Shown piece by piece: positions 1-25,201 of a stretch of DNA of 27,170 nt. The position numbers and the translations under genes are program-made. This stretch comes from a virus: the IMG/VR virus record IMGVR_UViG_3300021964_000418, positions 1 through 27,170 of that record. One strand, 5' to 3'. Each line of letters opens with the position of its first letter. Position 1 is the first letter of the stretch. The notes beneath the pieces were generated by a model that was given only the letters and a program-made list of their open reading frames with translations, did no database searches and was not told the DNA's origin.

Positions 1-13
1 AAGGTGGCACGGA

Positions 14-1675
14 ATGCCAAAGAAAACAGACTATACGGAGAGTAAAGAAATAGGTAAAACCCATTGCCCTGCTTGTCCTAGCAGCGATGGTTTTACTCTG
101 TATGATGATGGACATGGTTACTGCTTTGTATGTAACCATTATGAACGTAATGTAAATGAAAAGGAAAGTGAGATGGCTGTTGCAGCACCTCAAGTTACAA
201 GTCTAGAACTATTCGAATCACAACTAGGAGATTATCGTGGTTGTAAAGAGCGTGGCATTACAAAAACTATTGCGGAACACTACGGTGTTCGTGCAAGCTA
301 TGACAGTGAGCGTAACATTACTGCTTATAACTATCCTTATTACAAGGACAATGAGCTTATTGCTTATAAGGTAAGGACATTACCTAAACAATTTAAAACT
401 GTAGGAGACTTTAAAGATGTCTGGCCTTTTGGGTACCAAAGCTTCGGAATGGGAAGCAAACGCCTCGTCATCACTGAGGGTGAGTTCGACGCCATGTCGG
501 TTGCTCAAGCCTCATTGGATCATTATAATAAGATCTATCCTGCGATTAGTGTCGCCTCGGCTAGTAACCTCAAGAGCCTGTTGCAAGCAAGAGAATGGAT
601 TAGATCCTTCGAAGAAGTGGTATTGTTCTTTGACAGAGATGTAGCTGGTCAGAAAGCAATTAAAGATGCTGCTAATATTATTGGCATTGATAAAGTAAAG
701 ATAGCAAGTAGCACTGCTAAAGACCCTTGTGAGCTATACCAAGAGAAAGGTAAAGATGGTGTTATGCGTGCCATATGGGATGCACAACCATTTAGTCCTG
801 CTGGTATCGTAGTAGGGCATGATCCTGTGTGGGAGCAATATCTTGCTAGACGTTCTACTGAATCTGTTGCTTATCCTGATTGTCTTCGTGGCATTAATGA
901 TAAAACTAAAGGTATGCGCTTCGGTGAGATTACATTGTTTACTTCAGGTACAGGTAGCGGTAAATCAACTGTCATTAAAGAGATTGTATTAGACCTTCTT
1001 GATAAAACAGAAGATAAAATTGGTATGATTTCACTTGAAGAAAGCGTCGGTGATACTGCCGAAAAGTTTATTCAAATGAAACTTAAACGTAACTTACAAG
1101 AGTATGATGTATCTCTTGAAGAGCAAGAGGAGGCTAGTCGTGCAGTATTTGGTACTGAACAACTTGTATTACTGGATCACCAAGGCTCTGTTGGCGATGA
1201 ATCTCTTATTGATAAGATTGAGTATATGGCTCTTATGGGGTGTAAGTATCTTATCCTTGACCATATTACAATCGCTGTATCAGAAGGGGCTGAAGGTTAC
1301 ACTGGTAACGAAGCCATTGATAAAGTTATGTCAGATTTGCTTAAGCTTACTAAGAAGCATAACATATGGCTTGGGGTTATCTCTCACTTACGGAAGGTTC
1401 AAGGTGGGGGATCAACATTTGAACAAGGCAAATTACCTAGCATGGATGACATCAAAGGTTCTGGTTCAATCAAACAAATATCATTTGATATCATTGGATT
1501 TGCACGAGACATGGCTAATGAAGATGAAGACATCCGAAACACAATTAATTTTATTGTGCTTAAAAGCAGGTTTACAGGTAAAACAGGACCAGCTGGACAT
1601 ACCAAGTATAACCACGATACAACTCGATTAACTTATCACGATGAAAATGTTATTGATTTTGAGGTGCTGTCATGA
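14..1675 (+). CDS. T7 gp4-type DNA primase-helicase
   Basis: A replicative primase fused to a hexameric helicase, which primes the lagging strand and unwinds DNA at the phage fork. The 553-aa protein has a zinc-binding CxxC...CxxC finger (C18, C21, C37, C40) in a context close to T7 gp4 (SSDGFTLYDDGHGYCFVC). A TOPRIM primase core follows (TEGEFD at 154-159 and FFDRD at 205-209). A RecA-like helicase domain has Walker A SGTGSGKS at 311-318 and Walker B LILDH with D416. Length fits T7 gp4 (566 aa). An AAGGTGG ribosome-binding site lies just before ATG 14. The frame stays open to the window edge, so a longer start is formally possible, but the finger-to-start distance matches T7. Its stop overlaps the next start by 4 nt. 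It is the first complete gene of a + strand replication operon. Confidence 0.95.
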   Translation: MPKKTDYTESKEIGKTHCPACPSSDGFTLYDDGHGYCFVCNHYERNVNEKESEMAVAAPQVTSLELFESQLGDYRGCKERGITKTIAEHYGVRASYDSERNITAYNYPYYKDNELIAYKVRTLPKQFKTVGDFKDVWPFGYQSFGMGSKRLVITEGEFDAMSVAQASLDHYNKIYPAISVASASNLKSLLQAREWIRSFEEVVLFFDRDVAGQKAIKDAANIIGIDKVKIASSTAKDPCELYQEKGKDGVMRAIWDAQPFSPAGIVVGHDPVWEQYLARRSTESVAYPDCLRGINDKTKGMRFGEITLFTSGTGSGKSTVIKEIVLDLLDKTEDKIGMISLEESVGDTAEKFIQMKLKRNLQEYDVSLEEQEEASRAVFGTEQLVLLDHQGSVGDESLIDKIEYMALMGCKYLILDHITIAVSEGAEGYTGNEAIDKVMSDLLKLTKKHNIWLGVISHLRKVQGGGSTFEQGKLPSMDDIKGSGSIKQISFDIIGFARDMANEDEDIRNTINFIVLKSRFTGKTGPAGHTKYNHDTTRLTYHDENVIDFEVLS

Positions 1676-1887
1676 GTGAAACAGCTTTATATGAACAGGT
1701 AGGCTTACTACAACAACAGCTAGCTCATGCTAGACAATTAATTGAAGAGGTTACTAAAGATCGTAACAAGTATCGCAGTCAGGCGCTCATGCGTCAGGCT
1801 GCTAAAGACACTCTACAAGATGAAGTGAGGAACTTAGAAATAAAAGTACAACACTTAGAGCAACAGTTAGAGAGAGCTTATGAATAA
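1672..1887 (+). CDS. Small coiled-coil protein in the replication operon
   Basis: An unrecognised 71-aa protein. Almost its whole length is predicted by eye to be an amphipathic helix or coiled coil: leucines recur at heptad-like spacing with Gln/Glu/Arg between them (for example LLQQQLAHARQLIEEV near the start and VRNLEIKVQHLEQQLERAYE at the end). There is no membrane segment and no cysteine. The start overlaps the primase-helicase stop by 4 nt (ATGA) and its end overlaps the dCMP deaminase start by 8 nt, so it is translationally coupled and probably real. Position suggests an accessory or scaffolding role in replication or nucleotide metabolism, but no function can be assigned. Confidence 0.75.
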   Translation: MSETALYEQVGLLQQQLAHARQLIEEVTKDRNKYRSQALMRQAAKDTLQDEVRNLEIKVQHLEQQLERAYE

Positions 1888-2311
1888 ACAAGAACGCTAT
1901 GACACTATGTATATGGACATTGCACAACGAGTAGGTGAAATGTCTTATGACAGTGACACTAAAGTAGGAGCAGTAATTGTTAAGGACGGTAATATTATTT
2001 CAATGGGTTGGAATGGCACTCCAGCTGGGTTTCCTAATGAGTGTAAACATCCTGAAACAGGGGTTACATTACCTCATGTTATTCATGCTGAAGCTAATGC
2101 TATCTGCAAGCTGGCTCGTGATGGGGGCAACGGATTGGATGCCACCATTTATACCACGGTCGCGCCTTGTATGGAGTGTACTAAACTTATCTTGCAATCT
2201 GGCATCAATGAAGTTGTCATTACTAAAGCAGATGAGCGATACTTGGATGGATATAAAATTCTTAATGAGAAAGGCATGATACGATTATGCAAATCTTCTA
2301 CCAACAATTAG
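1880..2311 (+). CDS. dCMP deaminase (zinc-dependent)
   Basis: Deaminates dCMP to dUMP, feeding dTMP synthesis during phage replication. The 143-aa protein has the cytidine/deoxycytidylate deaminase zinc site: HAE with H69 as ligand and E71 as the proton shuttle, and PCMEC with C97 and C100. The segment NGTPAGFPNEC at 45-55 is typical of dCMP deaminases, as in T4 and cyanophage enzymes. Length agrees with the short bacterial and phage forms. The start lies inside the last codons of the coiled-coil gene (8-nt overlap) and the end overlaps the next small gene by 25 nt. Together with the class II ribonucleotide reductase on the other strand it indicates the phage remodels host deoxynucleotide pools. 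Confidence 0.93.
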   Translation: MNKQERYDTMYMDIAQRVGEMSYDSDTKVGAVIVKDGNIISMGWNGTPAGFPNECKHPETGVTLPHVIHAEANAICKLARDGGNGLDATIYTTVAPCMECTKLILQSGINEVVITKADERYLDGYKILNEKGMIRLCKSSTNN

Positions 2312-2550
2312 AGTCAGACCCTGATCATGTTGCATGGGTTAAATGTAAACCAGAAGATTTAGACATGGTAAAAGAAATATTTCCTGTCGAAAACTATGAG
2401 ATTTTAGTCGGAGTTAAACCAAACTTTAATCCCATAACATGTGATGTTCACACCTTAAACAATCCACCAGCCCCAACTTGGGGTGTAGATATCAGAAAGA
2501 GGACCAATGGAAGATCTGAAGGACTATCTCTTACAGAGAATAAGGAGTGA
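2287..2550 (+). CDS. Hypothetical small protein between dCMP deaminase and RNA polymerase
   Basis: An unrecognised 87-aa protein. The first half looks folded (alternating hydrophobic residues, HVAWVKCKPEDLDMVKEIF), followed by a Pro/Asn-rich stretch (NNPPAPTWGVD) and a charged tail. There is no recognised motif, membrane segment or signal peptide. It overlaps the deaminase by 25 nt and the RNA polymerase start by 44 nt. The large overlap at its 3' end means its C-terminal 14 residues are encoded by polymerase-coding DNA in another frame, so that tail may be poorly conserved. It is kept as a gene because otherwise a gap of about 195 nt would sit inside a fully packed operon. Confidence 0.6.
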   Translation: MQIFYQQLESDPDHVAWVKCKPEDLDMVKEIFPVENYEILVGVKPNFNPITCDVHTLNNPPAPTWGVDIRKRTNGRSEGLSLTENKE

Positions 2551-4624
2551 TGATCTTGGCGTTAAGCCTAGACGTAATCTACAACTAATGCGTATGATCG
2601 ATACCGATGGTGTTGACATGCTTGACTTTCTTATTGAAGATATGGTTATCTTTGCTAGGAAAGTAATACAACGCTGCTTTAAACGCAGCAAAGTAGAAGG
2701 CGAAACAGCTATTACACAAGTAAGTATGGCTGTTGGTAAACACATAATTGAAAACTGGGATCCAGACAACGTTAACTTTAGAGATCACGTTAGAGTTGGT
2801 GATCTTATTGTTGAAGCCTTTGTAATGTGTGGCTACCTTACTATAAGTGTAGGCCATATGAAGAGCCGTAAGCCAGTAACTATCCATGCCACTGAAAAAT
2901 GGGGCGAGATGGAAGCAGTTGCTGGCAAAACTGTTTGTATGAGTGAAGATCCTATCCTTCCAATTACATCTTTGTTTCAATCTAATGATCGCAGTGTTAT
3001 TAAGACTTGGGATAAATCAAAAGAAAAGAAGTTTAGAGACTACATTAATCAGCCATTTGTAAAAGCAATGAATAAACTTCAAGCTACACGTTGGCGTGTT
3101 AACTCTGATGTCCATCAGGCTATCTTAGATAACTGGGATGACTTTATTAGCAACGAAACTTTTGATGGTGAAGACGAAAAAGAAAATGAAAAGCTATATC
3201 AACGTCAAGCTTCTAAGAATAGAGAAGTTAAAGAAGTTATGGCTATCGCAAACAAATGGTTGGGTAAAGACTTTAGCTTTTATCTTGACGCTGACTATCG
3301 TGGTAGGCTGTACTATTCCGAACCTTTCTTTAACTTTCAAGGTTCCGATATCGCACGAGGACAACTAGTCTTTGCTAAAGGTAAACTCTTTAATGAGTCT
3401 GCTAGCTTTTGGTTAGGCGTACATACTGCTTGTTGTTTTAATCAGTCATATCTTGTTGAGGAGATACCTGAGTGGGTCACTACCGATTATCGTCAGGTGC
3501 TTTTAGATGAAGGTCTAGATACTATTTCAGTAGACAAGATGACACTTGAAGATAGAGCAATGTGGACTCAACAAAACATTGATGTCATTGTTGAGTTAGG
3601 TGAGATGAAATTCTTTGCAGATGAAGCTGAGAAACCTATTTCGTTTCTTGCTTGCTGTATCGAGTGGTATAAGTATGCTACTACTGAAGGTGACTTTTAT
3701 ACTCGCTTACCTATCCCTATCGATGGTGCTAATAACGGGTGGCAACACTTAGGCGCTATGTCTAAAGACGAACACACAGGTAAGCTAGTAGGCCTTGTAC
3801 CTACAGCCATTCAGAATGACTTCTATGTACAGGTAGCTAAGCGTCTTACAGAGCGTATGCCAGAGTGGTTTGAAGAACGTGAGATGCCTATGAAGCATAT
3901 TCGTAAGGGTATTGCTAAGCGTGCTGCTATGACTCGTGCATATAGCTGTGGACAAAAGAAAATGTCAGAGTCTATGTATAGTGATTGTTACCAGTATGGT
4001 TATACTGAGGAATACAATATTAATACATGGGACTGTGACGAGTTAAGTAACCAAGTAATACGATCTATCCAAGAGGTTTGTCCAGGACCGCTAGAGACTA
4101 TGCGTTATCTACAGCGTTTAGCTGAACAAGAGATAGCTAACTGGATGCGTGTCTATGGCACTGATCGTGGACATGGTATCGAGTGGACAACACTATCAGG
4201 CTTCCCTGTTGTGTATGAGTGTTATCGTACTCGACCAGTTAAAGTAGACTGTTATGGATTTAATACACCAGAAGGTGAAATACGATTTAAGCATGTTATC
4301 AGAGAGAAAACAGATATCCCTGATAGGCGTGGCTTTATGTGTGGCATTAGCCCTAACTTTGTGCATAGCATGGATGCCTCTCATATGGCTCTTGTAGTAG
4401 CTAACTGGGAAGATGACTTTGGTGCAGTGCATGATTCATTTAGTACTCATGCAGATGCAATAGAGCATCTAATGATAGACACTAGAAATAAGTTTATCCA
4501 GATGTATGACGTAGAAAACTTCTATGATGCAATACCGTTTGGCAAAGGCTTTACTGGTGATGTGCCTTCTATCGGTACACTAAATGTTAAGGAGGTAGCT
4601 AACTCTGACTACTTCTTTTGTTAA
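2507..4624 (+). CDS. T7-type single-subunit DNA-directed RNA polymerase
   Basis: A phage-specific transcriptase expected to read phage promoters, most likely those of the late - strand genes. All family signatures are visible in the 705 residues: DYRGR (263-267) followed by FNFQGSDIARG; motif A IDGANNGWQH with catalytic D406; motif B AKRAAMTRAY with K471 and Y479 (T7 K631 and Y639); PNFVHSMDASH; and motif C HDSF with catalytic D643 (T7 D812). It is about 180 aa shorter than T7 RNAP (883 aa). Most of the loss is upstream of motif A, where T7 has its promoter-binding and RNA-handling N-terminal domain. The end SDYFFC resembles the T7 SDFAFA foot. A purine-rich AGAAAGAGG ribosome-binding site precedes ATG 2507. 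It is the last gene of the + operon, unlike T7 where RNAP is the first early gene. Confidence 0.96.
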   Translation: MEDLKDYLLQRIRSDDLGVKPRRNLQLMRMIDTDGVDMLDFLIEDMVIFARKVIQRCFKRSKVEGETAITQVSMAVGKHIIENWDPDNVNFRDHVRVGDLIVEAFVMCGYLTISVGHMKSRKPVTIHATEKWGEMEAVAGKTVCMSEDPILPITSLFQSNDRSVIKTWDKSKEKKFRDYINQPFVKAMNKLQATRWRVNSDVHQAILDNWDDFISNETFDGEDEKENEKLYQRQASKNREVKEVMAIANKWLGKDFSFYLDADYRGRLYYSEPFFNFQGSDIARGQLVFAKGKLFNESASFWLGVHTACCFNQSYLVEEIPEWVTTDYRQVLLDEGLDTISVDKMTLEDRAMWTQQNIDVIVELGEMKFFADEAEKPISFLACCIEWYKYATTEGDFYTRLPIPIDGANNGWQHLGAMSKDEHTGKLVGLVPTAIQNDFYVQVAKRLTERMPEWFEEREMPMKHIRKGIAKRAAMTRAYSCGQKKMSESMYSDCYQYGYTEEYNINTWDCDELSNQVIRSIQEVCPGPLETMRYLQRLAEQEIANWMRVYGTDRGHGIEWTTLSGFPVVYECYRTRPVKVDCYGFNTPEGEIRFKHVIREKTDIPDRRGFMCGISPNFVHSMDASHMALVVANWEDDFGAVHDSFSTHADAIEHLMIDTRNKFIQMYDVENFYDAIPFGKGFTGDVPSIGTLNVKEVANSDYFFC

Positions 4625-4626
4625 AA

Positions 4627-4675
4627 AAAAATACCCCACAAGGTTTCCATATAGGATTCCCTGTGGGGTATTTTT
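4627..4675. terminator. Bidirectional intrinsic terminator between convergent operons
   Basis: A 14-bp perfect inverted repeat, AAAAATACCCCACA (4627-4640) and TGTGGGGTATTTTT (4662-4675), encloses a 21-nt loop that itself holds TCC/GGA pairs. On the + strand the stem is followed by a T-rich tail (TATTTTTATTTA). On the - strand it is followed by a run of T (the A-run 4623-4631 read in reverse). The stem lies directly after the RNA polymerase stop (4622-4624) and directly before the stop codon of the last - strand gene (4678-4680), so one hairpin can end transcription from both sides. Confidence 0.92.
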
Positions 4676-4677
4676 AT

Positions 4678-4920
4678 TTATAGTAATGCTTGTATTTCTT
4701 TTTTAGCTTCAGCACGTAATCTACCTGCTTTAGACTTTGCTTCATTAATAGGGATACCATCATTAATGTAGTTCTTAATATTTTTTTCGTACATAACATT
4801 AAGAATTGCATCATTAATTTCAGGTGTACCTGCTAAGTTAGGGTTAAGATTAAACTCTTTTACAAATTCATTATCATCAATATCTACACCTTGCAGTGCT
4901 AACCTATTAAAATTTTTCAT
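4678..4920 (-). CDS. Hypothetical small protein, last gene of the late operon
   Basis: An unrecognised 80-aa, mostly charged protein with an Asn/Asp-rich N-terminal half and a helical Lys/Ala/Glu-rich C-terminal tail (KSKAGRLRAEAKKEIQALL). It has no cysteine and no membrane segment. A good AGGAGG ribosome-binding site precedes the start, and the upstream TAG stop runs into it (TAGGAGG), 12 nt from the end of the 1156-aa gene. It is terminated by the bidirectional hairpin. Its place directly behind the proposed virion polymerase suggests a virion or packaging partner, but nothing in the sequence proves this. Confidence 0.75.
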   Translation of the reverse strand: MKNFNRLALQGVDIDDNEFVKEFNLNPNLAGTPEINDAILNVMYEKNIKNYINDGIPINEAKSKAGRLRAEAKKEIQALL

Positions 4921-4932
4921 ATAGCTATCCTC

Positions 4933-7900
4933 CTAGTTATATTGATAAGCCTTTAAAGCTAATTTTTTAAGCGCTATTGCTTTCCTTGTTTCTGAATCAG
5001 TTTTCCATTGACTAAAATCTCCAGCAATATTTTCATAATTCTCTATTGCGTTAAATAAATTAAGAAGATTTTCTCCTGAAATACTACCACCGTTTTCTGA
5101 CCAACCAAAAACTCTTGCAGCATCTAATAGTTTTTCTGCTGACCCTTTTTTACGGCGTCTACCTGTAATTGGTTGTACAATACGTTTTTGTTTTTCTTTT
5201 TCTCTTTCATTTAAAGCAACTAAGTAAGTATGCATTGAACGATGAGGTCCAGTTTCTGCTAGTAAATAAGCGCCATTAGGATTAACTGTATTTAAAAATA
5301 CTGATTTAGCTTCATTGTATCCATTAAGGATATTATTAGCTAAATTATATTTTTTGTTTACTTCCACAAAGTTTTTGTTAATTACTTGGTGATAATCTCT
5401 TACACTTGTTGCGTCTGTAATTATAGCATCATGTACAGGCAGCATAAACAATGGGTCTCTACGATTTTTATTTACATCAAGTATTGTTTGAGCCATAATA
5501 GCCGCATCAATTTGTTGAATAGAAATAACAGGTAGCTGGTTAGCAACTTCTCTACCGTAAGGCGAAGGTGGTGCTAACTCCCAATCACTTGTTTTTTGGT
5601 TAAGTCTTTTCTTACGAGCAGATCTAGCTGAGCCTGTTGGTTGTCTTGTTTTAACAGGACGCATAACAGTACCTTCAGGTGTAGGAACAGGCACTTGTAA
5701 TCCTGTTTCTGTCCATTCTTTAGATCCTAAAAATATATTAGTGCCAAGTGGTCCTTTATAAAAAGGAGTCTTACCCATCATTGACCACAACATGCCCATG
5801 CTTTGTAGTGTTTTTTGATGTTTAATATTAAGCGTACTACCTATTGTGTTTTCTATAAGCTTATTAAAGTCTTCAATCATATCCGCACGTTTATAGTTAG
5901 GGATATCTACTTCATTAGCTGCATCAATTAAAAGATTACCATACTTAGAATTAAGAAAATCAATTACTGTATCTTGGTTATAAGATGGATCTTTACCGTA
6001 CGATACCTCCATTAAAGGTGTTCTTGAAATTAATCTTACGATTGCTTTTCTTTCTTCATGGTCACTAATATTTTGTAACATTTTGTTAAAAATAGTTTTC
6101 TTTTCAGGACTATTTATAAATACCGTATCAATTGAACTTGGCATTTGATTAACGTATTGTTGTCTAATATCACCTTCTGGAATAACTGAGTCTTCCTCTG
6201 ACCTATACATTAAGCCTACTGCTTTTAATAAATCAATATTACCCATCTGCATAGCTTGGATAGCAATACCGTTCTGTTTACCATCATGTTGTGTTTGTGC
6301 TAATGGTTCAAATAAAACAGGACCATCCGTTTGTTTTGCAGCTTTCTTTGCATCTACATAGTTTGCAAAATCTACTAGCGATTGAAACTTATATCCCCAT
6401 TCTGCAGGATCTTGAAAGTCATCTATAAATTCTGGTCCAACTAATTCATTTAAAGCTTCAATATTAGTATAATCACTTTCTGCAATAGTTCTTAATTTGC
6501 TTCCTGTTTTATACCATTTAATATAGGTAGGGTTATTAGGGTCATTAATAATTCGATTAGTAGCTTTTTCAATTGCTGACCAACGCATATCTTCTGTTTT
6601 AGAAAATGCGCCAGAACGATCTTTTACTCCACCTTCTTCAGGTGTTAAAAGATTTTTACCAATAATATATTTCCAATTAGCTAGTATCTCTGATCCAGTA
6701 TCTTGAGAATTATTTAAATTCAAAGGAACACGTTTAGCGCTCCCTACAAAGTTTCTTACTAGCTTACTGTCTTGATAATTTAAAATAGTATTACGAACAA
6801 AGTATCTGCCTACTGAAGATGCATGAAACCATTTATTGTAAAATACTTTATCTCTACGTTGATCACCATCTATCATTGTTTGGAAAATCTTTTTTGCTTC
6901 GCGCCTTACTACTCTGTCTGCTTGATCTCTTGATAATGAAATGTCACCGTTATTTGTTTTTAAAGCTCTGTTATAAGCCTTTTGCCATTTCTTTTCATCT
7001 AGTCCTATCATTGCAGCCCATGGCTCATTCGAGAAAAAGCCTTCCGAAGATTGATTTGCTAAACCTATAATTGTTCCTTTATCATCTGTTTGAATAACAG
7101 AAGCTACAACTTGCATAGCAAAACCATATCGTTCTTCCATTATTTTAAGTGGCATACGAGACAGTGTATCTTTAACTTTATTTTCAATTACCATATTAGA
7201 ATCTAATTTAGATTTTTGGGAAACAGGACCAGTCCTTTCTCCTTTTAATCGCTCTAATCCTGGAATTGATTGACCGCTAATTGCTGGCGCATCTGAAACA
7301 TCTATTCGTCTTTCAGGTTGTATATCAGCTAAAAGCTCTCTTGAATTGTTAAAGAAGTCTTCTGCTTCTTTACTCATTGTGTAAAATTCAGTATCACCAT
7401 CTGCGTTTACTTCTAAAAAACCTGTATTTTTTACTGCATTCCACATAAGCGTATCAAGATAGTCTGCTTCTTCAGGTGTAAGAGTTTTGCCTGAATCACC
7501 ATAGCCGGTTACAGTTATACCATCTTGCGTTGGTGTTTGGCCTAGCTTACCAATAACGCCCCTTGCTAAATTTCCTCTAGTATAATCGCCATTTAAAATT
7601 TGACCTTGTAATTCTGAAGGTTTATCTGTATCAAAAAAGAAAGAAGCATTTTCAGATTGTGTTGAATTATATTTTCCAATTACACGTTCATCTCTTTTGT
7701 TAAGATGATCTTGAATATTCTCTAATAACTGTATAGTTAATGCGTTAGCTACTTTAGGTTTTAATTGATTAGTAGTAGTGTCTAACAAATCTTTTTGCAC
7801 TAAAGTATTTATTACACTGCGGCCTAAGTCTGTTTCGTCTCTTGTAGCAGGAATAAAAGTTTCGTCTAAATTTTCTCTAAGTCTAATACCAGTTGCAATA

Positions 7901-8403
7901 ACGTTATCAAGTGAATCTTTAGTTGATGTAGCTGTTTTAAATTTATTTCTTAACTCTGATGCTGTAGCAAAATCAAAGAAATCATCTTCTTCTTCAACTT
8001 TCATTTGCTCATAGCGAGGAGCCATAGCAAATTGTTTTTGCTGTTCAGAAGCAACTGCTCGTGCCGCTGTGACTTCATCATAACGAGTAGCGCCTTCAAT
8101 ATCAGTTACGCCTCTTGCAGCTACTGCTCTTGTAATAGGGGCTACACCACCTGACGGAGCTAAGCGATCTTCTACCGCTTGCATATCGCTAGCAGTTGGT
8201 TGCGCTGCTGTAACCACTCCTTCAGTTTGAGGTGGAGGTGCTACGCCTAACTTTTCTACAGGTGTTTTTGCAATAGTTCCTGTTTCTTGATCTAAAGTAA
8301 TCTTGCGTTTTGCTTGCTCTAGCTCTACTGCTTGTGGGGTTTGAGCAGGTGCTGCTACATTTTTAGCTGCTTGTAGTGTGTTACTAAAACTTTTTCTTGC
8401 CAT
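4933..8403 (-). CDS. Putative virion-packaged single-subunit RNA polymerase (N4 vRNAP-like)
   Basis: An 1156-aa protein in the internal-virion-protein module. The first 140 or so residues are a Pro/Ala/Thr-rich linker. Further on are diverged single-subunit RNA polymerase signatures in the right order: SSVGR (S529-R533, the T/DxxGR element) followed by NYQDSKLVR (542-550); motif A HDGKQNGIAIQ with D707; motif B RLISRTPLMEVSYG with R790, R794, Y802, G803; QQID with D966; and motif C VHDAI with H991-D992. Spacings are close to T7: A to B 87 (T7 94), B to C 198 (181), D966 to D992 26 (25). The motif B lysine (T7 K631) is replaced by R794. Length is near that of the N4 mini-vRNAP core (about 1100 aa). 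Being a second RNAP is well supported by motifs; being packaged in the virion is inferred from its place behind the transglycosylase and nuclease proteins. Alternative: a degenerate polymerase fold with only a structural role. Confidence 0.72.
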   Translation of the reverse strand: MARKSFSNTLQAAKNVAAPAQTPQAVELEQAKRKITLDQETGTIAKTPVEKLGVAPPPQTEGVVTAAQPTASDMQAVEDRLAPSGGVAPITRAVAARGVTDIEGATRYDEVTAARAVASEQQKQFAMAPRYEQMKVEEEDDFFDFATASELRNKFKTATSTKDSLDNVIATGIRLRENLDETFIPATRDETDLGRSVINTLVQKDLLDTTTNQLKPKVANALTIQLLENIQDHLNKRDERVIGKYNSTQSENASFFFDTDKPSELQGQILNGDYTRGNLARGVIGKLGQTPTQDGITVTGYGDSGKTLTPEEADYLDTLMWNAVKNTGFLEVNADGDTEFYTMSKEAEDFFNNSRELLADIQPERRIDVSDAPAISGQSIPGLERLKGERTGPVSQKSKLDSNMVIENKVKDTLSRMPLKIMEERYGFAMQVVASVIQTDDKGTIIGLANQSSEGFFSNEPWAAMIGLDEKKWQKAYNRALKTNNGDISLSRDQADRVVRREAKKIFQTMIDGDQRRDKVFYNKWFHASSVGRYFVRNTILNYQDSKLVRNFVGSAKRVPLNLNNSQDTGSEILANWKYIIGKNLLTPEEGGVKDRSGAFSKTEDMRWSAIEKATNRIINDPNNPTYIKWYKTGSKLRTIAESDYTNIEALNELVGPEFIDDFQDPAEWGYKFQSLVDFANYVDAKKAAKQTDGPVLFEPLAQTQHDGKQNGIAIQAMQMGNIDLLKAVGLMYRSEEDSVIPEGDIRQQYVNQMPSSIDTVFINSPEKKTIFNKMLQNISDHEERKAIVRLISRTPLMEVSYGKDPSYNQDTVIDFLNSKYGNLLIDAANEVDIPNYKRADMIEDFNKLIENTIGSTLNIKHQKTLQSMGMLWSMMGKTPFYKGPLGTNIFLGSKEWTETGLQVPVPTPEGTVMRPVKTRQPTGSARSARKKRLNQKTSDWELAPPSPYGREVANQLPVISIQQIDAAIMAQTILDVNKNRRDPLFMLPVHDAIITDATSVRDYHQVINKNFVEVNKKYNLANNILNGYNEAKSVFLNTVNPNGAYLLAETGPHRSMHTYLVALNEREKEKQKRIVQPITGRRRKKGSAEKLLDAARVFGWSENGGSISGENLLNLFNAIENYENIAGDFSQWKTDSETRKAIALKKLALKAYQYN

Positions 8404-8451: not shown

Positions 8452-11400
8452 TTATTTTAATAATGCGCTGATTATATCTGTTGAATCAGGCAACTCTACC
8501 CCTTTAAGGGGGTTTTCTCCGTGCAATATATCTGCACCTGAACGCCTAGCTGAAGTTACTGGTCCAACATAAGGTGCAACTCTAAGTATATTTGAAGCTG
8601 CTCTTTCTGTTTCACCTTGTAAAGCTAACCCAGTCGATGTTAATACTGTTTCAATGTTTCTAGCTGATGGACCTGCTTCACCTAATACAGTGTTAAACAT
8701 CCACTCTAAACCTTCACCTCTTTGTGGATACAAAGGATTTACAACATCAATTACTCTTTCATATTGGCCTATAACACCAGAAGAATACAACGCTCTTTGT
8801 ACATAGCCTACCTCATTTAAGTAAGGGCTTGATTGACCAAACTTAATAAGATCTTTTATGTATTGAGAAGCTGCGCCTAACGCTATCATAGTTACTATTA
8901 AAGCAAAAGCATCATATTTTACTTTAGGATTCCCTTTAGCTAATTGATCTCGCCATAGTTTAGGTACTACATTAGCAGTAAATGTACTAATAAAACCGTT
9001 AAACTGAGTAAACAATTGATAATGAGGGTCTTGAAAAAATAAAGGTCGATTAGCAGATTGTGGATTTTGAATACGCTCATTTACAAAACGATAAATAGCG
9101 GTTTGTATTTGTTCGTTAATATCATCTTGTATTTCTTGAGAACGTCTCCATACCGCATCACCTTGAATGCCTTCTTTACGTGCTAATTTTCTTGTTGCTT
9201 GTTCACGCTGCGAAGGAGACCGAATATACTCTACTGTATTTGCTTCTACATTACGACCATCAGTAATATCAAACAACTGATCTCGATATAATTCTTCTGT
9301 TTCAGAAAAATAATCATAAAGAAGTTGAACATCAATGCCAAGATCACTAAGATCTAAGTATGTTCGTAACTCAATTTCATTAAACTTATCAATATCAAAA
9401 GTACCGTCTGCTTTTTTAGGAGCGTATTCTAAACGGTTCATACCTGCTTTAACAGTATCTACTGCAAATGCTGCATTCATTCGTCTTTGAAATTGAGTAA
9501 ATTGTTTAATACCTACTGATCTAAAGAAAGCTTCATGCGCTCTTACAAATGAAACATCGCGTTCACCAGTAGCTAATCTGTTTACAACTGTATTGGCGTC
9601 TTCAGGAAGACCAGATAATTCTAACTGTTTTTCAGACAGTTTAACTTCTGCACGTAAAGCTTTATCCCATGCAGAAGCTATCTCTTGCATCATTCTTGAA
9701 GTTGCTTGTTGAAACTCTGCATTATCTTTTACTTTAAAGTATACCATTGCTGTTTCAGGTATAGAAGAAATAGTAGATAAAGGTAATCCTGCAAATATAG
9801 ACCATGAAGTTAAATAGTTATTGATAGCCGCCCAACGAGGATTTTCTATTCGTCTGAAGTTACCGTGTGAGCTATCAATAATTGCTTTAGTATACCAAGC
9901 AAATTTTTCTATTTCTTCTTTAGATAAGACACCTTCTTTTTCTAAGTCTTTAAATAGCTTTGAAAGTTTAGAACCGCCTTCACCAAAGTATTTAGTAGTT
10001 GAATTATATTTAGCTGCTTCTACTTGTGTTTTATTTAATGTTTCAAATATATTATCATTAGACCAATCGGTAAAGCCATCTTGATCAGTAATATTAGCTG
10101 ACATCTCGGTAAAAGACCATGGACGCCACTTAACACCGTTAACTAATGAATACTCGCTTTGAATACCATTAGCTCCTCGATTAGCAATATTTTGATAAAT
10201 TGCTTCAACATCTAAAGAAGGATCAACACGAGCTAACCATTCTTTAAAGGCAGCAGGGTTTGCTCTTACTTTTGCATGATCAAAACCTTGATGTCGCCAC
10301 CAATAATCACTACGATAAGCTAGCTCTTTACCATTTGCTTTCTTGTATTCGTCGTTAGTAGCGTTCCAAGCAGCGTCATATGCATTTTTAATTTGCTTAG
10401 CTGCAGTATATAATTTATTAGCTTCGATAATGCTTGATACGCCTAACGCTTCAAATGGTACTTTACCTTTAGGAAACTTTTTAGCACGAGTATAATACTC
10501 TCTTATTTTAGCATCGGTATCTAAGCCTAAGTCTCTTAGTGTACCTACTGTATCGGCACTTCTGTCGCCTAACACATAGCTATCTGCTGCATCGTAAGCA
10601 CCTTGTTGCTCTAGTAACATTAACTCGTAATTTTCAAAGCCACCACTTCGCCCAAACGCTCTTACTTTTTTAGATATTTCTATTGCATTTTTAGTATTGA
10701 TTGTTTTAAAACCAAAATCTTTTGCTATAGCTTTTTCATCTACAAAAGTTTTAAGATCAGAAATAAGCTGATCATTTGCTTGTTTAAAGTTCATTCCAGC
10801 GTGATATACGCCTGTAGTCATCTGACCTATACGAGAAAATATATCTAGTCCTACTTTACTTTGAACTAGTTTATTAAAATCAATAGCAGAAGATTCAGCA
10901 GCCTTAACTAGTTTACCAAATCCTGTTGTTATTGCATCAATATAATCAGACAAGTCATCATTGTTTGCAAAGAAATTTTTAATTCCTCTTTTTTCATTTT
11001 CATGTGTCTGAGCTTTATTAGCAAAGTCATATTTATTTTCTTCATAATCAAAGCCTTCAATAGCAGCATCTCGATCATGTTGTTCAATATTATTTTCTAC
11101 ATTAGAAGGTCTACGATCAGTTGTATTAGTTGTTTGTCTATCCCGAATAGCCGCTTGTTCTATTACTCGGAATCTATCAGTACTGCCTTTTTCTAATTCT
11201 GTTTTTAAAAGTTTATTTTGTCCTTGTGAATAAACATTTCCTGCTGTTGAAAAACCAGAACCAAGAACACCTCCTGCTAATCCAGCATTAATAAACCGAT
11301 TAACAAGTTCGTCTGAAGTATAATCTTTATCTGACATTAAACCAGCAGTCGCTGCTTGAATTCCTTCTTGCAGAATTTCAGTACCTGATTCGGTTAATGC

Positions 11401-12682: not shown

Positions 12683-12710
12683 AAAAAAGTAAGGGGAAAT
12701 CCCCTCACTT
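12683..12710 (-). terminator. Intrinsic terminator inside the late operon
   Basis: Read on the - strand, AAGTGAGGGG and CCCCTTACTT form a 10-bp stem (one G:U pair) with a 4-nt ATTT loop, followed immediately by a T-run (positions 12688-12683). The left arm overlaps the stop codon (TGA, 12705-12707) of the 744-aa transglycosylase protein. It lies before the ribosome-binding site of the 1405-aa gene, so it could attenuate expression of the last three late genes. Confidence 0.8.
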
Positions 12711-14939
12711 CTTCATGTTGCTGGGATCTTCTAGTTTAGTTGCAGTCTCGTCACCTACGACTACTGCTTGCATCCAAGCAATAAAAGGATCGTATCCTTC
12801 TGTTTTGCCTTCAGTAAATCGACCTTTAGATTTCATGTTATTCCAAGTTTCTTTTCCACTTGACCACAGATCTCTGTAAGTTTTAACGGCTAGTCTTTGA
12901 TCACCGTTGGCTGCATCAGCTGCAATGTTAAGTAATGTTTGTTCTAGCTGATCCATATTAGAAGCTGAAGTATTTTTAACATCATTATAACTAATTATAC
13001 CTTTTGTTTTTAATGATATAACTCGTTTATTATAATATCCTTCTAAACTAGTTGGTTCACGAGTACCACTTTCTTTAGCAGATTTAATTGCTTTAAGATA
13101 ATCGCCTTGCGCAGCTACTATCTCGTTTTTAAGACGTTGAGATTGCTTTGTATCCATACCAAAAGTATTTCTAGTTTCTTCATACAAAAGATATGACTCA
13201 CCTGCAAGCTCATCTGTTGCAAAATCAATCTGTTTATTAGCATCATCAATAGTCTTGTTAATTTCTTTAGTTCTATTATTAAGAGCTTTTTGAAAATAAT
13301 TAGTTACGTTAGTTGGATTGTGAACACTATCATTCATTACTTCAAATCGAATTCTATTTTCAGGCTTAGAAAGATCTAACAGTTGTCCATTTGAACCTTG
13401 AGTAACTAAACGTTTATCATCACCAGTCCCTATTGTGTAAACAGGCACTTCAAGCCCTGTTAATCGATCAAATCTAGTCCCTGATTGTCCTGTTATACCA
13501 CCACTGGTTTCAGTTTTAGTAACAAGTACATCTACATCTCCACTCTTGAGATATTCATTTAATGATTCAGGTGTATACAAATCTTCATTATCATTAACAA
13601 ATTTAGCTTGTCTAACTCTTTCAAGCTCTGCACGAGTGGCATAGTCTTTCATAGTGTAGTTAAGAGAACCATTATGATCATAACCTAATGCTCTAGATCC
13701 AGCATAGTTAATTACCATACGGGCAAGGTCTTTAGGTGGAAACATATCACCAAGCACTTCTAAAAATAAATCAGTTGTTTCTTTAAAGAATCCTGGATTA
13801 TTATTCTTTATATCAACACCTGCTTGAACAACATTATCATTAGTATCAGCATCTGGTGTTGGTTGATCTACTTCATCGCCTGTATCTGTTTCTGCAATAA
13901 TCTTATTTACAAAATCAGTCGTATTAACTGGTGAAATTGCTTTACTAGTTGATTGTAAATCAGCTAATTCTTTTTGTAATTTATCTACATTAGCTTTAGC
14001 ACCTTCATAAGTTTTTTGATTAATTCCTTTAAACTCAGGAAGACCTCTTGAAATATTATCTTGTCTTTTTTGTTCTAAAGTATCAAAAGAAGATTGTACA
14101 ATATCAAGATTATTAGTAACCGCTTTAATATTAAAACGAGTTAGGTCTTGTTTTCGTTTATCTGCATCTGAATCAGGCCTTGGCGGAATATAATCTTCGC
14201 CTAAAATTTTAGTAGGATAATCAATAGTTTCTTGAGCTAAAGGATCCCCTTTGCCAGACATTGCTTGAGCTAATCTACCCGGACCTGCATTATACGCTTG
14301 GAGTACTTGTGCAGGAGTATAATTAGGATTTTCTTTTTGAATACCTGCAATATACTGTGTAGCAAATCGTCTAGCTATTTCTGGATCATTACGATCTTCA
14401 AGAGAAATAGGTTGAACATTGTAACCTGGATCTAAAGCAGTATCTGCCATGATTTGTGCAGCACCTGTAGCGCCTGACTTTGGATTTACTGCTTTGTTAT
14501 TATTACTAGATTCAACTTGAATAAGGCTTTCTAATACTTGTGGAGTAAACCATTTAGGCACTTCATAAGGCTCATAGTCTTCACCGCCATAACCTTCTGC
14601 AGCATAAATAGACCCGCCATCAGCTGCATAAGTAGGAATAGGACCACCTTGTGCCTTTTGTATTTTCCTACCTTCCTCATTCATCTTATCAATTTTTTCT
14701 TGATTACCTGGAAGGCGTGATGCTTCGGCATTAACTACGTTTTCTCCAGGAGTAAGCCATGCTGGTACTGTATCAGTACCTTTAGGATCACCCGGATGAT
14801 TACTAGTATCAGCACCGTTAAATCCATCAGGCGCATCAGGTATCATAATCATTAATGGTACACTTTGGTCTTCAAACAGTTCGAGAGAAAACATATTACC
14901 ATAACGATCTTTTTGAGTAATACTTTTTATGTTATGCAT
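12705..14939 (-). CDS. Internal virion protein with lytic transglycosylase domain
   Basis: A 744-aa protein that likely cuts peptidoglycan during DNA entry. A soluble lytic transglycosylase (SLT, lysozyme-like) domain spans about 128-245. The catalytic Glu is E143 in LIQVESSNN, followed by SGATGAAQIM (the GxxQ motif) and AYNAGPGRL at 215-223. The first 115 residues include GTDTVPAWLTPGENVVN (54-70), a motif also common in phage tape-measure and virion proteins, and a Gly/Ala/Tyr-rich stretch. The C-terminal 490 residues are Asn/Asp/Lys-rich, mostly helical and unrecognised. T7 gp16 carries the same activity in its ejected internal core, which supports the assignment. An AAGGAG site precedes the start; an intrinsic terminator overlaps the stop. 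Confidence 0.88.
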   Translation of the reverse strand: MHNIKSITQKDRYGNMFSLELFEDQSVPLMIMIPDAPDGFNGADTSNHPGDPKGTDTVPAWLTPGENVVNAEASRLPGNQEKIDKMNEEGRKIQKAQGGPIPTYAADGGSIYAAEGYGGEDYEPYEVPKWFTPQVLESLIQVESSNNNKAVNPKSGATGAAQIMADTALDPGYNVQPISLEDRNDPEIARRFATQYIAGIQKENPNYTPAQVLQAYNAGPGRLAQAMSGKGDPLAQETIDYPTKILGEDYIPPRPDSDADKRKQDLTRFNIKAVTNNLDIVQSSFDTLEQKRQDNISRGLPEFKGINQKTYEGAKANVDKLQKELADLQSTSKAISPVNTTDFVNKIIAETDTGDEVDQPTPDADTNDNVVQAGVDIKNNNPGFFKETTDLFLEVLGDMFPPKDLARMVINYAGSRALGYDHNGSLNYTMKDYATRAELERVRQAKFVNDNEDLYTPESLNEYLKSGDVDVLVTKTETSGGITGQSGTRFDRLTGLEVPVYTIGTGDDKRLVTQGSNGQLLDLSKPENRIRFEVMNDSVHNPTNVTNYFQKALNNRTKEINKTIDDANKQIDFATDELAGESYLLYEETRNTFGMDTKQSQRLKNEIVAAQGDYLKAIKSAKESGTREPTSLEGYYNKRVISLKTKGIISYNDVKNTSASNMDQLEQTLLNIAADAANGDQRLAVKTYRDLWSSGKETWNNMKSKGRFTEGKTEGYDPFIAWMQAVVVGDETATKLEDPSNMKK

Positions 14940-22366: not shown

Positions 22367-24118
22367 TTAAGCGCACTCTTTTGCGCCAGTAAGCGGGTCG
22401 AAAAAGCAAGCTTCTGCCTTTCCTTCTTCTTGAGCCACTTCCTGAGTCTCGCTAGGTACCGTCTCTTTTTCTTCCACGGTTTCGTTGTTAAGGATCCCGA
22501 ACCTTTTACCACTAAGTCGGAACGTTGTGCATCCTTTCGCGTTGCCTTTCCAGGCATCAACATAGACCTGTTTGAACTCATCATATGTGACGTCATCTCC
22601 TACATTACAAGTTTTAGAACATGCCGAATCAACGTATTGTTGTGCTAGTAGAAGAACTTTAAGGTGATCTTGTACGCTAATTTCATTAGCAGTTTTACCT
22701 TCAACACCCTTTGAGTAAGCATAATCCATAACGCGTTCGACCTTTGGACCATCAAATGTTTGAATGGTGCGATCATAGTAATGATTAAATACTGGCTCAA
22801 TACCACCGCTTACATTATCTGCACAAATACTAATAGTACCTGTAGGTGCAATAGAAGTAAGATGGCTATTACGAATACCATTTGTTTTAATCAACTCAAT
22901 TACGTCCTCACTGAGTGTATTAATAAATTTACTTTCTAAATATTTTTCATTGTATAAAGGAAAGACTCCTTTTTCTTTTGCCAAGTTTGCCGAAGCACGA
23001 TATGTTTCATCTCTAAGCGTTTTAAATACGACTTCCATCCAATTAAGAAATCCAATTGTCCCGTAAGGGTATCCAAGCATTTCACCTGCATTAGCCAATC
23101 CTGTGATTCCAAGCCCCATTCGTCTTTTGTTTTGTGCTTCATCTTCTTGTTCCTTTAATGGATAAATTGTTCTATCAACTACATTATCCATTGCGCGAAC
23201 TACATGCTTAATATCTTCAATATAACTTGAATAATCAAATGTACATTTATCGTATGGATTATCTATTACATATTTAGTAAGATTAAAAGAACCAAGTAGA
23301 CATGCGCCGAAAGGTGGTAATGGTTGTTCACCACAAGGGTTTGTTGTTTCAATAGTTTCACAGTAATGCAAGTTATTCATTTCATTAATGCGATCAACAA
23401 AGATAACTCCAGGCTCTGCCCAATCCCAAGTAGAGTTCATTACCTCGTCCCACACCATTGGTGCCGAAAGAGTACCACGCTCATGACCTTCAAAGTAAAG
23501 AGTGTAATCAGAACCTGCTTCGAGTGCTTCCATAAAAGCATCTGTAATACCAACAGAAATATTAAAGCCAGTAAGCTTATCGCTGTTACGTTTAGCACTA
23601 ATAAAGTCAAGAATATCAGGGTGATCTACGCGAAGTACACCCATCTGCGCCCCACGCCTGTGACCACTACTAGCAATCGTTTGACAAATAGAATCAAAGA
23701 TTCCCATAAAAGAAACTGGGCCGCTTGATTTACTATCAAGAGATTTAATAAGGTCTCCTCGTGGTCTAATACGACTAAAGTCATAGCCGATACCACCGCC
23801 TCGTCGCATTGTTTCAGCTGCCTGAGTAGCTCGTAGCATAATGCTATCCATCGAGTCTTCGATATGACCACTTACAAAGCAATTATAAGCAGTAGTAATT
23901 CGTGGACTGCCCATAGCGTTTTGAACGCGACCAGCAGGTAAGAACCTACGATTACCTAAAATATCTTCTAGTGCATATTGATGTTCATCGTTATCACAGA
24001 GTGCCTTTGCTATGCGCTTAATCTTTCCATCAAATGTTTCGTCTTCTAATCTGTATTTCATTTTATCGATTTCTTCTGAAATAGGCATCGATGGACCTGT
24101 GTACTCTGTGTTTCTCAT
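22367..24118 (-). CDS. nrdJ: Class II (adenosylcobalamin-dependent) ribonucleoside reductase
   Basis: Reduces ribonucleotides to deoxyribonucleotides using a B12-derived radical, so it needs no NrdB partner, and none is seen here. The 583-aa protein has the N-terminal active-site cysteine in TTAYNCFVSG (C80), RRGGGIGYDFSRIRPRGD, the radical-site NPCGEQ with N260, C262 and E264, and GACLLGSFNL. Glycine-rich loop APTGTISICADN and C-terminal C571 and C582 (redox relay to thioredoxin) complete it. Monomeric class II enzymes of this size are common in marine phages. It lies inside the virion/lysis region between tail hub and lysozyme rather than with the other nucleotide gene. An AGAGG site precedes the ATG. 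Confidence 0.92.
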   Translation of the reverse strand: MRNTEYTGPSMPISEEIDKMKYRLEDETFDGKIKRIAKALCDNDEHQYALEDILGNRRFLPAGRVQNAMGSPRITTAYNCFVSGHIEDSMDSIMLRATQAAETMRRGGGIGYDFSRIRPRGDLIKSLDSKSSGPVSFMGIFDSICQTIASSGHRRGAQMGVLRVDHPDILDFISAKRNSDKLTGFNISVGITDAFMEALEAGSDYTLYFEGHERGTLSAPMVWDEVMNSTWDWAEPGVIFVDRINEMNNLHYCETIETTNPCGEQPLPPFGACLLGSFNLTKYVIDNPYDKCTFDYSSYIEDIKHVVRAMDNVVDRTIYPLKEQEDEAQNKRRMGLGITGLANAGEMLGYPYGTIGFLNWMEVVFKTLRDETYRASANLAKEKGVFPLYNEKYLESKFINTLSEDVIELIKTNGIRNSHLTSIAPTGTISICADNVSGGIEPVFNHYYDRTIQTFDGPKVERVMDYAYSKGVEGKTANEISVQDHLKVLLLAQQYVDSACSKTCNVGDDVTYDEFKQVYVDAWKGNAKGCTTFRLSGKRFGILNNETVEEKETVPSETQEVAQEEGKAEACFFDPLTGAKECA

Positions 24119-24168: not shown

Positions 24169-24609
24169 TTATATACTACGCATACGGTTAACTAATCGAT
24201 CTGCTCTATTAGTTACTTGTTGATACCAACGGCTATCAACCATTTCATCTGCAGCACGATTCCAGTTACCAGCATCTACTGCTGCTCGCATACCTCTAAA
24301 CTTACTAAGCCTAGGTCTTCCCATATTAAACATCATATTAGCAATAATTAATTGGACTTCACCAGGCAAAAGCTCGAAATTGGCATATAGCTTCTTGCAC
24401 TCCGATAACACGATTTTGACATCTTTAGCGAAGCACTCATTAACTCTATCTTCTGAGACTGGTGTGCCAACTTCTTGTCCATACTCAGGATCGCTATCAA
24501 GAACAAGATGGCCAATACCAAAAGTAGGGAGGCCAAGGTGATCGAGATAAATCTCGTACTTAACTCCTTCATCTACTTTTAGCTCCTCTCTTAGCTGATC
24601 TATATTCAT
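24169..24609 (-). CDS. Endolysin, T4-type lysozyme (GH24)
   Basis: Cleaves the beta-1,4 bond between MurNAc and GlcNAc, lysing the host at the end of infection. The 146-aa protein carries the T4 lysozyme catalytic triad at identical spacing: E14 (VDEGVKYEIY), D23 and T29 (DHLGLPTFGIGH), against E11, D20 and T26 in T4. GIGHLV and the C-terminal NRADRLVNRM segment are typical. It has no N-terminal signal-anchor or membrane segment, so it depends on the holin encoded just before it. Its start overlaps the holin stop (ATGA). Confidence 0.95.
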   Translation of the reverse strand: MNIDQLREELKVDEGVKYEIYLDHLGLPTFGIGHLVLDSDPEYGQEVGTPVSEDRVNECFAKDVKIVLSECKKLYANFELLPGEVQLIIANMMFNMGRPRLSKFRGMRAAVDAGNWNRAADEMVDSRWYQQVTNRADRLVNRMRSI

Positions 24610-25001
24610 TTTGTTTTTCCTTTTACTTTTTCAAATGTTCTAAGACCACCAAGACCAAGCATACCCATAAGAACAGTCATAAGTGTTTCCATTTCAAAAG
24701 TAGGCAACGGAGGAATATCTACATTAAACCATGATACAACAAACAAAGTAATAGGTAATCCTACAAAGTGCCAGAATAAAGCAATGCCACATGTCCAGCC
24801 AATAAACGGTCGCCAACCAGCTACAAAAATATTACGACTAGCTGCTTCTGCTTTGTTTATTTCAAGTTGACCTTTAGCTAACTCTTGAGCATGTCGTTCA
24901 CCCATAGTAGCTAATTCATGCGCTATGCGTGCTTTTTCATCTGCATCAGGAATAAATTTATCTAGTAGTCCTGTTACTGGACCTATTAAGGATGATATCA
25001 T
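24606..25001 (-). CDS. Holin, 3-TM (gene-transfer-agent type)
   Basis: Permeabilises the inner membrane to release the lysozyme. Of 131 residues, a short N-terminal amphipathic part and a charged helix (DADEKARIAHELATMGERHAQEL) precede hydrophobic segments at about 66-92 and 104-120, with the diagnostic FVAGWRPFIGW before them and GLGGLRTFEK after them, as in the GTA_holin_3TM family. The frame is open nine codons further upstream. ATG 25001 is chosen because it overlaps the previous TGA (ATGA) and follows an AAGGAC site. Confidence 0.9.
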   Translation of the reverse strand: MISSLIGPVTGLLDKFIPDADEKARIAHELATMGERHAQELAKGQLEINKAEAASRNIFVAGWRPFIGWTCGIALFWHFVGLPITLFVVSWFNVDIPPLPTFEMETLMTVLMGMLGLGGLRTFEKVKGKTK

Positions 25002-25201
25002 AAAGCTTGTCCTTTTAGTTGTACACACTTAAATTTTTTAGGTTCTATTTTACCTTTATTAATCATACGAATATCATTGCCCATTTCATAGGCTCTAGAA
25101 GTACATTGTTCGCGTGAATCGTATGGGCCTCTAGTATCGTAATATTCCCAACATTTATCTGGAACGGCTATACTACAAGCCAATACAATTACTTTAAACA
25201 T
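24998..25201 (-). CDS. Small four-cysteine protein in the lysis cassette
   Basis: An unrecognised 67-aa protein with four cysteines (C9, C17, C33, C59) spaced for disulfides. The N-terminal hydrophobic part (FKVIVLACSIAV) is too short for a standard signal peptide. VLAC resembles a weak lipobox, which would make C9 a lipid anchor, but the site is too close to the start to be convincing. It sits directly between the 157-aa membrane protein and the holin, so it may work at the envelope during lysis or exclusion. A clear AGGAG site lies 8 nt ahead. Confidence 0.75.
   Translation of the reverse strand: MFKVIVLACSIAVPDKCWEYYDTRGPYDSREQCTSRAYEMGNDIRMINKGKIEPKKFKCVQLKGQAL

Follow-up and report, generated by a model that had tools for sequence, protein, structure and literature searches.

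The 27,170-base stretch of viral DNA analysed here (the window) encodes a predicted virion RNA polymerase (vRNAP) which, judged by its sequence, is closer to the virion RNA polymerase (RNAP) of phage N4 than to T7-type enzymes. The predicted protein has about one third of the size of N4 gp50, with the polymerase standing alone in phages that lie outside the Schitoviridae. Phage N4 packs an RNA polymerase in its particle, which switches on its first genes. We favour, with a probability of roughly 80%, an N4-lineage RNAP that has been cut to its catalytic core, is packaged with ejection proteins and transcribes early genes before the T7-type polymerase of the phage (RNAP1). It would be packed in the capsid together with the neighbouring ejection proteins, enter the cell ahead of or along with the DNA and transcribe the early genes until RNAP1 is made, which would take over later transcription. 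We infer packaging, ejection and early-gene transcription, packaging because N4 gp50, which is known to be ejected, has the same operon place, and because of the ejection-gene neighbours and the exchange with these genes. The gene and its motifs are:

4933..8403, minus strand: predicted vRNAP gene, 1156 aa (ORF call and translation)
6754..6807, minus strand: SSVGR...NYQDSKLVR block (R533, K547, R550), counterpart of N4 TRVGR...NPQSAKLVR and T7 DWRGR...NPQGND
6283..6285, minus strand: motif A catalytic Asp D707, equivalent to T7 D537 and N4 D559, invariant in 49 homologues
5995..6024, minus strand: motif B R794-x-PLMEVS-Y802-G803, equivalent to T7 K631/Y639 and N4 K670/Y678
5428..5430, minus strand: motif C catalytic Asp D992, equivalent to T7 D812 and N4 D951, invariant in 49 homologues

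All five signatures that the earlier note had read from the protein are present in order and correctly numbered: SSVGR (residues 529-533), D707-G708, R790/R794/Y802-G803, QQID (D966) and VHD (D992). SKLVR follows SSVGR at residues 546-550, and the motif spacings agree with those proposed (A-B 87, B-C 198, D966-D992 26).

The AlphaFold2 model of vRNAP, built from a 49-sequence alignment, has a mean pLDDT of 83.6 and a pTM of 0.86, with poor modelling confined to residues 1-56 and short loops. Every one of the top 50 PDB matches listed by Foldseek (best E 5e-16) is an RNA polymerase, from mitochondria, T7 or N4. VIA-align gave Z 25 for T7 RNAP, Z 23 for mitochondrial RNAP and Z 19.6 for N4 mini-vRNAP (743 residues, rmsd 7.6), the last aligned over residues 128-1156 of the model. 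Since the structural alignments span residues ~64-1156, nearly the whole chain is predicted to be a single-subunit RNA polymerase, preceded by a low-confidence, Ala/Gln/Pro-rich N-terminus of ~60 aa. The right-hand fold, the motif A and C Asp residues and the motif B Tyr of the single-subunit RNAP superfamily are all in place, with the motif B Lys replaced by Arg in the window subclade. The earlier note had named two outcomes that would speak against a polymerase: a confidently predicted structure lacking the right-hand palm, and profile matches to an unrelated family. Neither was obtained; the profiles matched N4 RNAP, and the negative controls were clean.

We opened the family via the neighbouring gene. 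A scan for relatives of RNAP1 gave 78 loci, in each of which the family member was taken to be the large ORF that runs leftward immediately downstream of RNAP1, recovered by phmmer and the family profile. Scans of viral contigs with the single vRNAP protein or two sequences gave one relative, while tblastn against 50,697 phage records found no vRNAP relative and did not pick up Roseobacter phage CRP-7 either. Across the resulting 49-sequence alignment, in which the lowest identity to the window vRNAP is 15%, K547, R550, D707, G712, G730, D745, R747, D992 and N1009 do not vary; R533, Y802, G803 and D966 are almost invariant. The invariance of D707, G712, K547, R550 and D992 at this depth upholds the claim that the motif set lies beyond chance, as do shuffled or reversed reference profiles, for which E was at least 0.45. 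Two subgroups are distinguished by motif C, reading HDxxI or YDAF. In the window vRNAP and its nearest relatives, Arg (R794) replaces the motif-B catalytic Lys (T7 K631, N4 K670), a change that the earlier note did not mention; most homologues in the family carry Lys.

Profile comparison places the family with the N4 enzyme. The family profile matched N4 mini-vRNAP (11 Schitoviridae sequences) with a probability of 98.9% and E 1.6e-17 over 871 columns, compared with E 1.8e-8 for a T7-type set (11 sequences) and E 0.45-0.94 for column-shuffled and reversed controls. The alignment pairs SSVGR with N4 TRVGR, NYQDSKLVR with NPQSAKLVR, DGKQNG with DGVTNG (motif A), R794-TPLMEVSYG with N4 K-NPLTITIYG, and VHD with IFD. 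Both the NPQxxKxxR block and (R/K)xPLME..YG are N4-type traits of the family that T7 RNAP and RNAP1 lack. When the family was compared with full-length gp50 (3500 aa), only residues 1010-2088 were matched; neither the N-terminal nor the C-terminal domain of gp50, taken in isolation, gave a match to the vRNAP family. When 48 sequences from all groups were aligned by MAFFT without guidance, the five catalytic residues (R533, D707, K/R794, Y802 and D992) shared columns with those of T7 and N4. IQ-TREE recovered the vRNAP family (UFBoot 97), the Schitoviridae vRNAPs (100) and the T7-types including RNAP1 (100, on a long branch), and FastTree agrees with this grouping. The tree is unrooted and its three groups alone do not prove sisterhood of the vRNAP family and N4, which we propose from the scores of the profile comparison and the length of the T7 branch. 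The overall shape gives T7 a slightly higher score than N4, and the assignment to N4 is based on sequence profiles, motifs and tree. The comparison with N4 vRNAP made in the earlier note, and its proposal of a second, highly diverged single-subunit RNAP, are both borne out, the latter by fold, profiles and motifs, the other RNAP in the window being T7-type.

The surrounding genes are:

2507..4624, plus strand: RNAP1, T7-type single-subunit RNA polymerase, 705 aa (PF00940 190.8 bits, phrog_414 E 5e-105)
4678..4920, minus strand: 80-aa ORF, small and conserved, located between the RNAP1 and vRNAP genes; stays with the RNAP1 side of the boundary in the relative L016
8452..12669, minus strand: 1405-aa predicted internal/ejection protein (phrog_6958, virion structural)
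12705..14939, minus strand: 744-aa predicted ejection protein with a transglycosylase (SLT) domain (PF01464 E 1.1e-15)

The vRNAP gene is convergent with that of RNAP1 and is the last gene of a leftward late operon, with the gene for the 1405-aa protein directly upstream in the same operon. The placement beside ejection-protein genes given in the earlier note holds, with the phrog_6958 protein and the SLT transglycosylase as neighbours, and is reinforced by the cassette exchange described below. The small convergent genome that it described was a misreading: relatives assemble to 52-58 kb and the window is a fragment. Sequences of relatives reach 57,850 and 51,771 bases, and the second spans the ends of the first, which gives a genome of ~58 kb. 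As separate observations, RNAP1 and its relatives have Tyr-Ser in motif B where T7 RNAP has Tyr639-Gly640, the N-terminus of the 1405-aa protein resembles by eye a staphylococcal-nuclease-type fold (VDGDT...RLGNINARE...DRQ), and the late structural operon includes genes for a ribonucleotide reductase and for lysis (lysozyme-like, holin) at 22367-24118, 24169-24609 and 24606-25028.

Comparison of the window with L016 places a recombination boundary at the 3' end of the vRNAP gene:

4917..4933, strand not assigned: recombination boundary, where 97.4% DNA identity with L016 stops; vRNAP beyond it is ~30% identical

The 97.4% identity extends over window positions 1-4917, up to the vRNAP 3' end at 4933, and RNAP1 is 99.3% identical in this pair compared with 29.9% for vRNAP. 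Pairs with RNAP1 at least 95% identical fall into two sets, with vRNAPs 70-100% or 19-35% identical, and identity of the 1405-aa neighbour tracks that of vRNAP where both are available. Likewise, between the phages G001 and G002 the major capsid, portal and terminase are 96-98% identical and vRNAP 31%. A sharp boundary at the vRNAP 3' end is also observed between these two phages, with near-identical replication genes and highly diverged polymerase and ejection genes. These patterns indicate that vRNAP is swapped between phages together with ejection genes and not with RNAP1 or the primase, as expected if polymerase and ejection partners have to be compatible.

The exchange pattern bears on whether the enzyme is packaged. 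The phage also encodes the T7-type RNAP1, so vRNAP might be an active but unpackaged enzyme, a second cytoplasmic polymerase made late and placed in the late operon by chance. We regard this as unlikely: the closest kin by profile and tree are virion RNAPs, the gene occupies the same operon end as N4 gp50, and it is exchanged with an ejection protein rather than with RNAP1 or the primase.

A cultured relative extends the family further. CRP-7 (58,106 bp) has the same gene order as the window, with RNAP gp30 followed by leftward gp33, gp34 and gp35, and gp33 closes the leftward late operon, as vRNAP does. By profile, gp33 is homologous to the vRNAP family (E 9.6e-16, ~14-20% identical), and the adjoining gp34 is homologous to the 1405-aa neighbour. 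gp33 keeps the motif A and C Asp residues and has Arg for the motif-B Lys, and its clade shows poor conservation of the R533 block. The clade profile matches N4 weakly (E 0.018), and the link to N4 runs through the main family. The predicted model of a viral-contig relative 83% identical to gp33 has a low pLDDT of 56.5, and its listed PDB hits are all RNAPs; since the underlying alignment included main-family sequences, the support from this model is weak. The paper describing CRP-7 reported only the T7-like RNAP, and gp33 is 'hypothetical' and was never annotated as a polymerase (PMC6918029).

The motif-B Arg could lower the activity of the window vRNAP. Together with the poor R533 block of the CRP-7 clade, where the Arg recurs, and the very fast divergence of the family, it would fit an ejection protein that is derived from a polymerase, is no longer catalytic and plays only a structural or channel part. 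We consider this still less probable than an unpackaged enzyme. Against it, the family retains both catalytic Asp residues, the motif-C block and Tyr-Gly despite deep divergence, and the Lys is present in most homologues. An active, packaged polymerase remains our preferred reading.

Single-sequence searches gave little signal. With the lone window vRNAP, PF00940 scored 16 bits (E 0.0054, under the cut-off) and phrog_414 E 1.3e-4. Neither phmmer with the single protein nor hmmsearch with the family profile found a polymerase match among PDB sequences, because the divergence is too great for sequence search. These results explain why the gene would go unannotated. The weak Pfam score and the lack of a phmmer match are also what would be seen with chance motif matches or another palm enzyme such as a family A DNA polymerase, an explanation with a negligible probability, refuted at the fold level by listed structural matches that are all RNA polymerases and opposed by the N4 RNAP profile match with its clean negative controls.

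N4 vRNAP requires short DNA hairpins extruded from supercoiled DNA (PMC4496689). The window holds no early region, and in the early region of the phages G001, G002 and G004 tandem hairpins lie shortly upstream of ribosome-binding sites, in each of which a TAG...CTA stem precedes a second stem of 6 bp that has a 4-base loop:

G001 (L106), positions 185, 672 and 2955: tandem hairpins
G002 (L111), positions 9239, 9746 and 11686: tandem hairpins
G004 (L113), position 13875: tandem hairpin

The three in G001 fall within 3 kb, where ~0.02 are expected (6-10 pairs in 1.38 Mb of random sequence). Their loops are of 4 nt, not the 3 nt of N4-type hairpin promoters, and no tandem hairpins were found in CRP-7 or G003. 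The hairpins are common to phages whose vRNAPs are only ~20-30% identical, which makes a link to vRNAP uncertain. We only suggest them as candidate early promoters used by vRNAP, and a role at the RNA level is an alternative.

In a broader reading, these phages would keep a split form ancestral to the giant N4 vRNAP (or the reverse), with the polymerase next to an ejection protein taken to resemble the gp50 N-terminal domain, in the order of the gp50 domains; the pair would move as a cassette and start early transcription from tandem-hairpin promoters. This reading is speculative and we consider it doubtful. The 1405-aa protein matched the gp50 N-terminal domain with E 1.6e-4 and a probability of 50%, in an alignment mostly of Gly/Ala-rich, membrane-like stretches, and was set aside as a detached gp50 domain, the weak match serving as a lead only. 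Profile comparison gave no similarity of this protein to the gp50 C-terminal domain or T7 gp16.

In the Schitoviridae the vRNAP is the third ejection protein, in place of T7 gp16; virion-packaged single-subunit RNAPs have been called unique to this family, and their 3500-aa size makes tail passage a puzzle (PMC12633501). A large search of IMG/VR for N4 vRNAPs required seven hallmark genes of every contig retained and also took vRNAP length into account in its filtering (PMC10654107), so that compact relatives may have been passed over. No compact vRNAP outside the Schitoviridae is described in the open-licence literature that we searched. A relative of one third of the size would offer a natural minimal system for the role of the extra gp50 domains. 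It also allows one to ask whether hairpin promoters are general and why the polymerase is swapped along with the ejection machinery. The cultured relative CRP-7 makes the claim testable, and standalone vRNAP relatives may be useful as transcription enzymes.

Among known systems, the putative vRNAP of StenR_269 is likewise a large protein proposed as a vRNAP in a non-Schitoviridae podophage, although that proposal draws on size, helix content, the absence of Cys and low-confidence models, with no polymerase motifs shown (PMC10747016). T7 RNAP and the Autographiviridae RNAPs (PF00940, phrog_414), as well as RNAP1, have the same fold and catalytic residues as vRNAP. They differ in their DxRGR and NPQGND-type blocks, the absence of KxPL, a replication-side position and a weaker profile match. 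N4 gp50 and the Schitoviridae vRNAPs (phrog_2206; PDB 2PO4, 3C3L, 9PNT) share with vRNAP the single-subunit fold over the whole mini-vRNAP core and the TxxGR-type, NPQxxKxxR, A, B (KxPL...YG) and C motifs. The gp50 gene is also the last of a leftward late operon, convergent with the replication genes, in a phage with a separate T7-like RNAP. However, Schitoviridae vRNAPs have 3240-3785 aa compared with 1156 aa here, where the gp50 N- and C-terminal domains are absent, N4 has a heterodimeric RNAPII in contrast to the one-chain, T7-type RNAP1, and Schitoviridae genomes are of ~70-75 kb compared with ~52-58 kb. The major capsid belongs to PHROG 1328 compared with 1357 in N4, while portal PHROG 1216 is common to both; in G001 the portal (L108 12223-14391) falls in the N4 portal PHROG and the capsid protein does not. 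The common portal PHROG hints at partial ancestry in common with the Schitoviridae. By RNAP1 chain composition, capsid PHROG and genome size, we place these phages outside that family.
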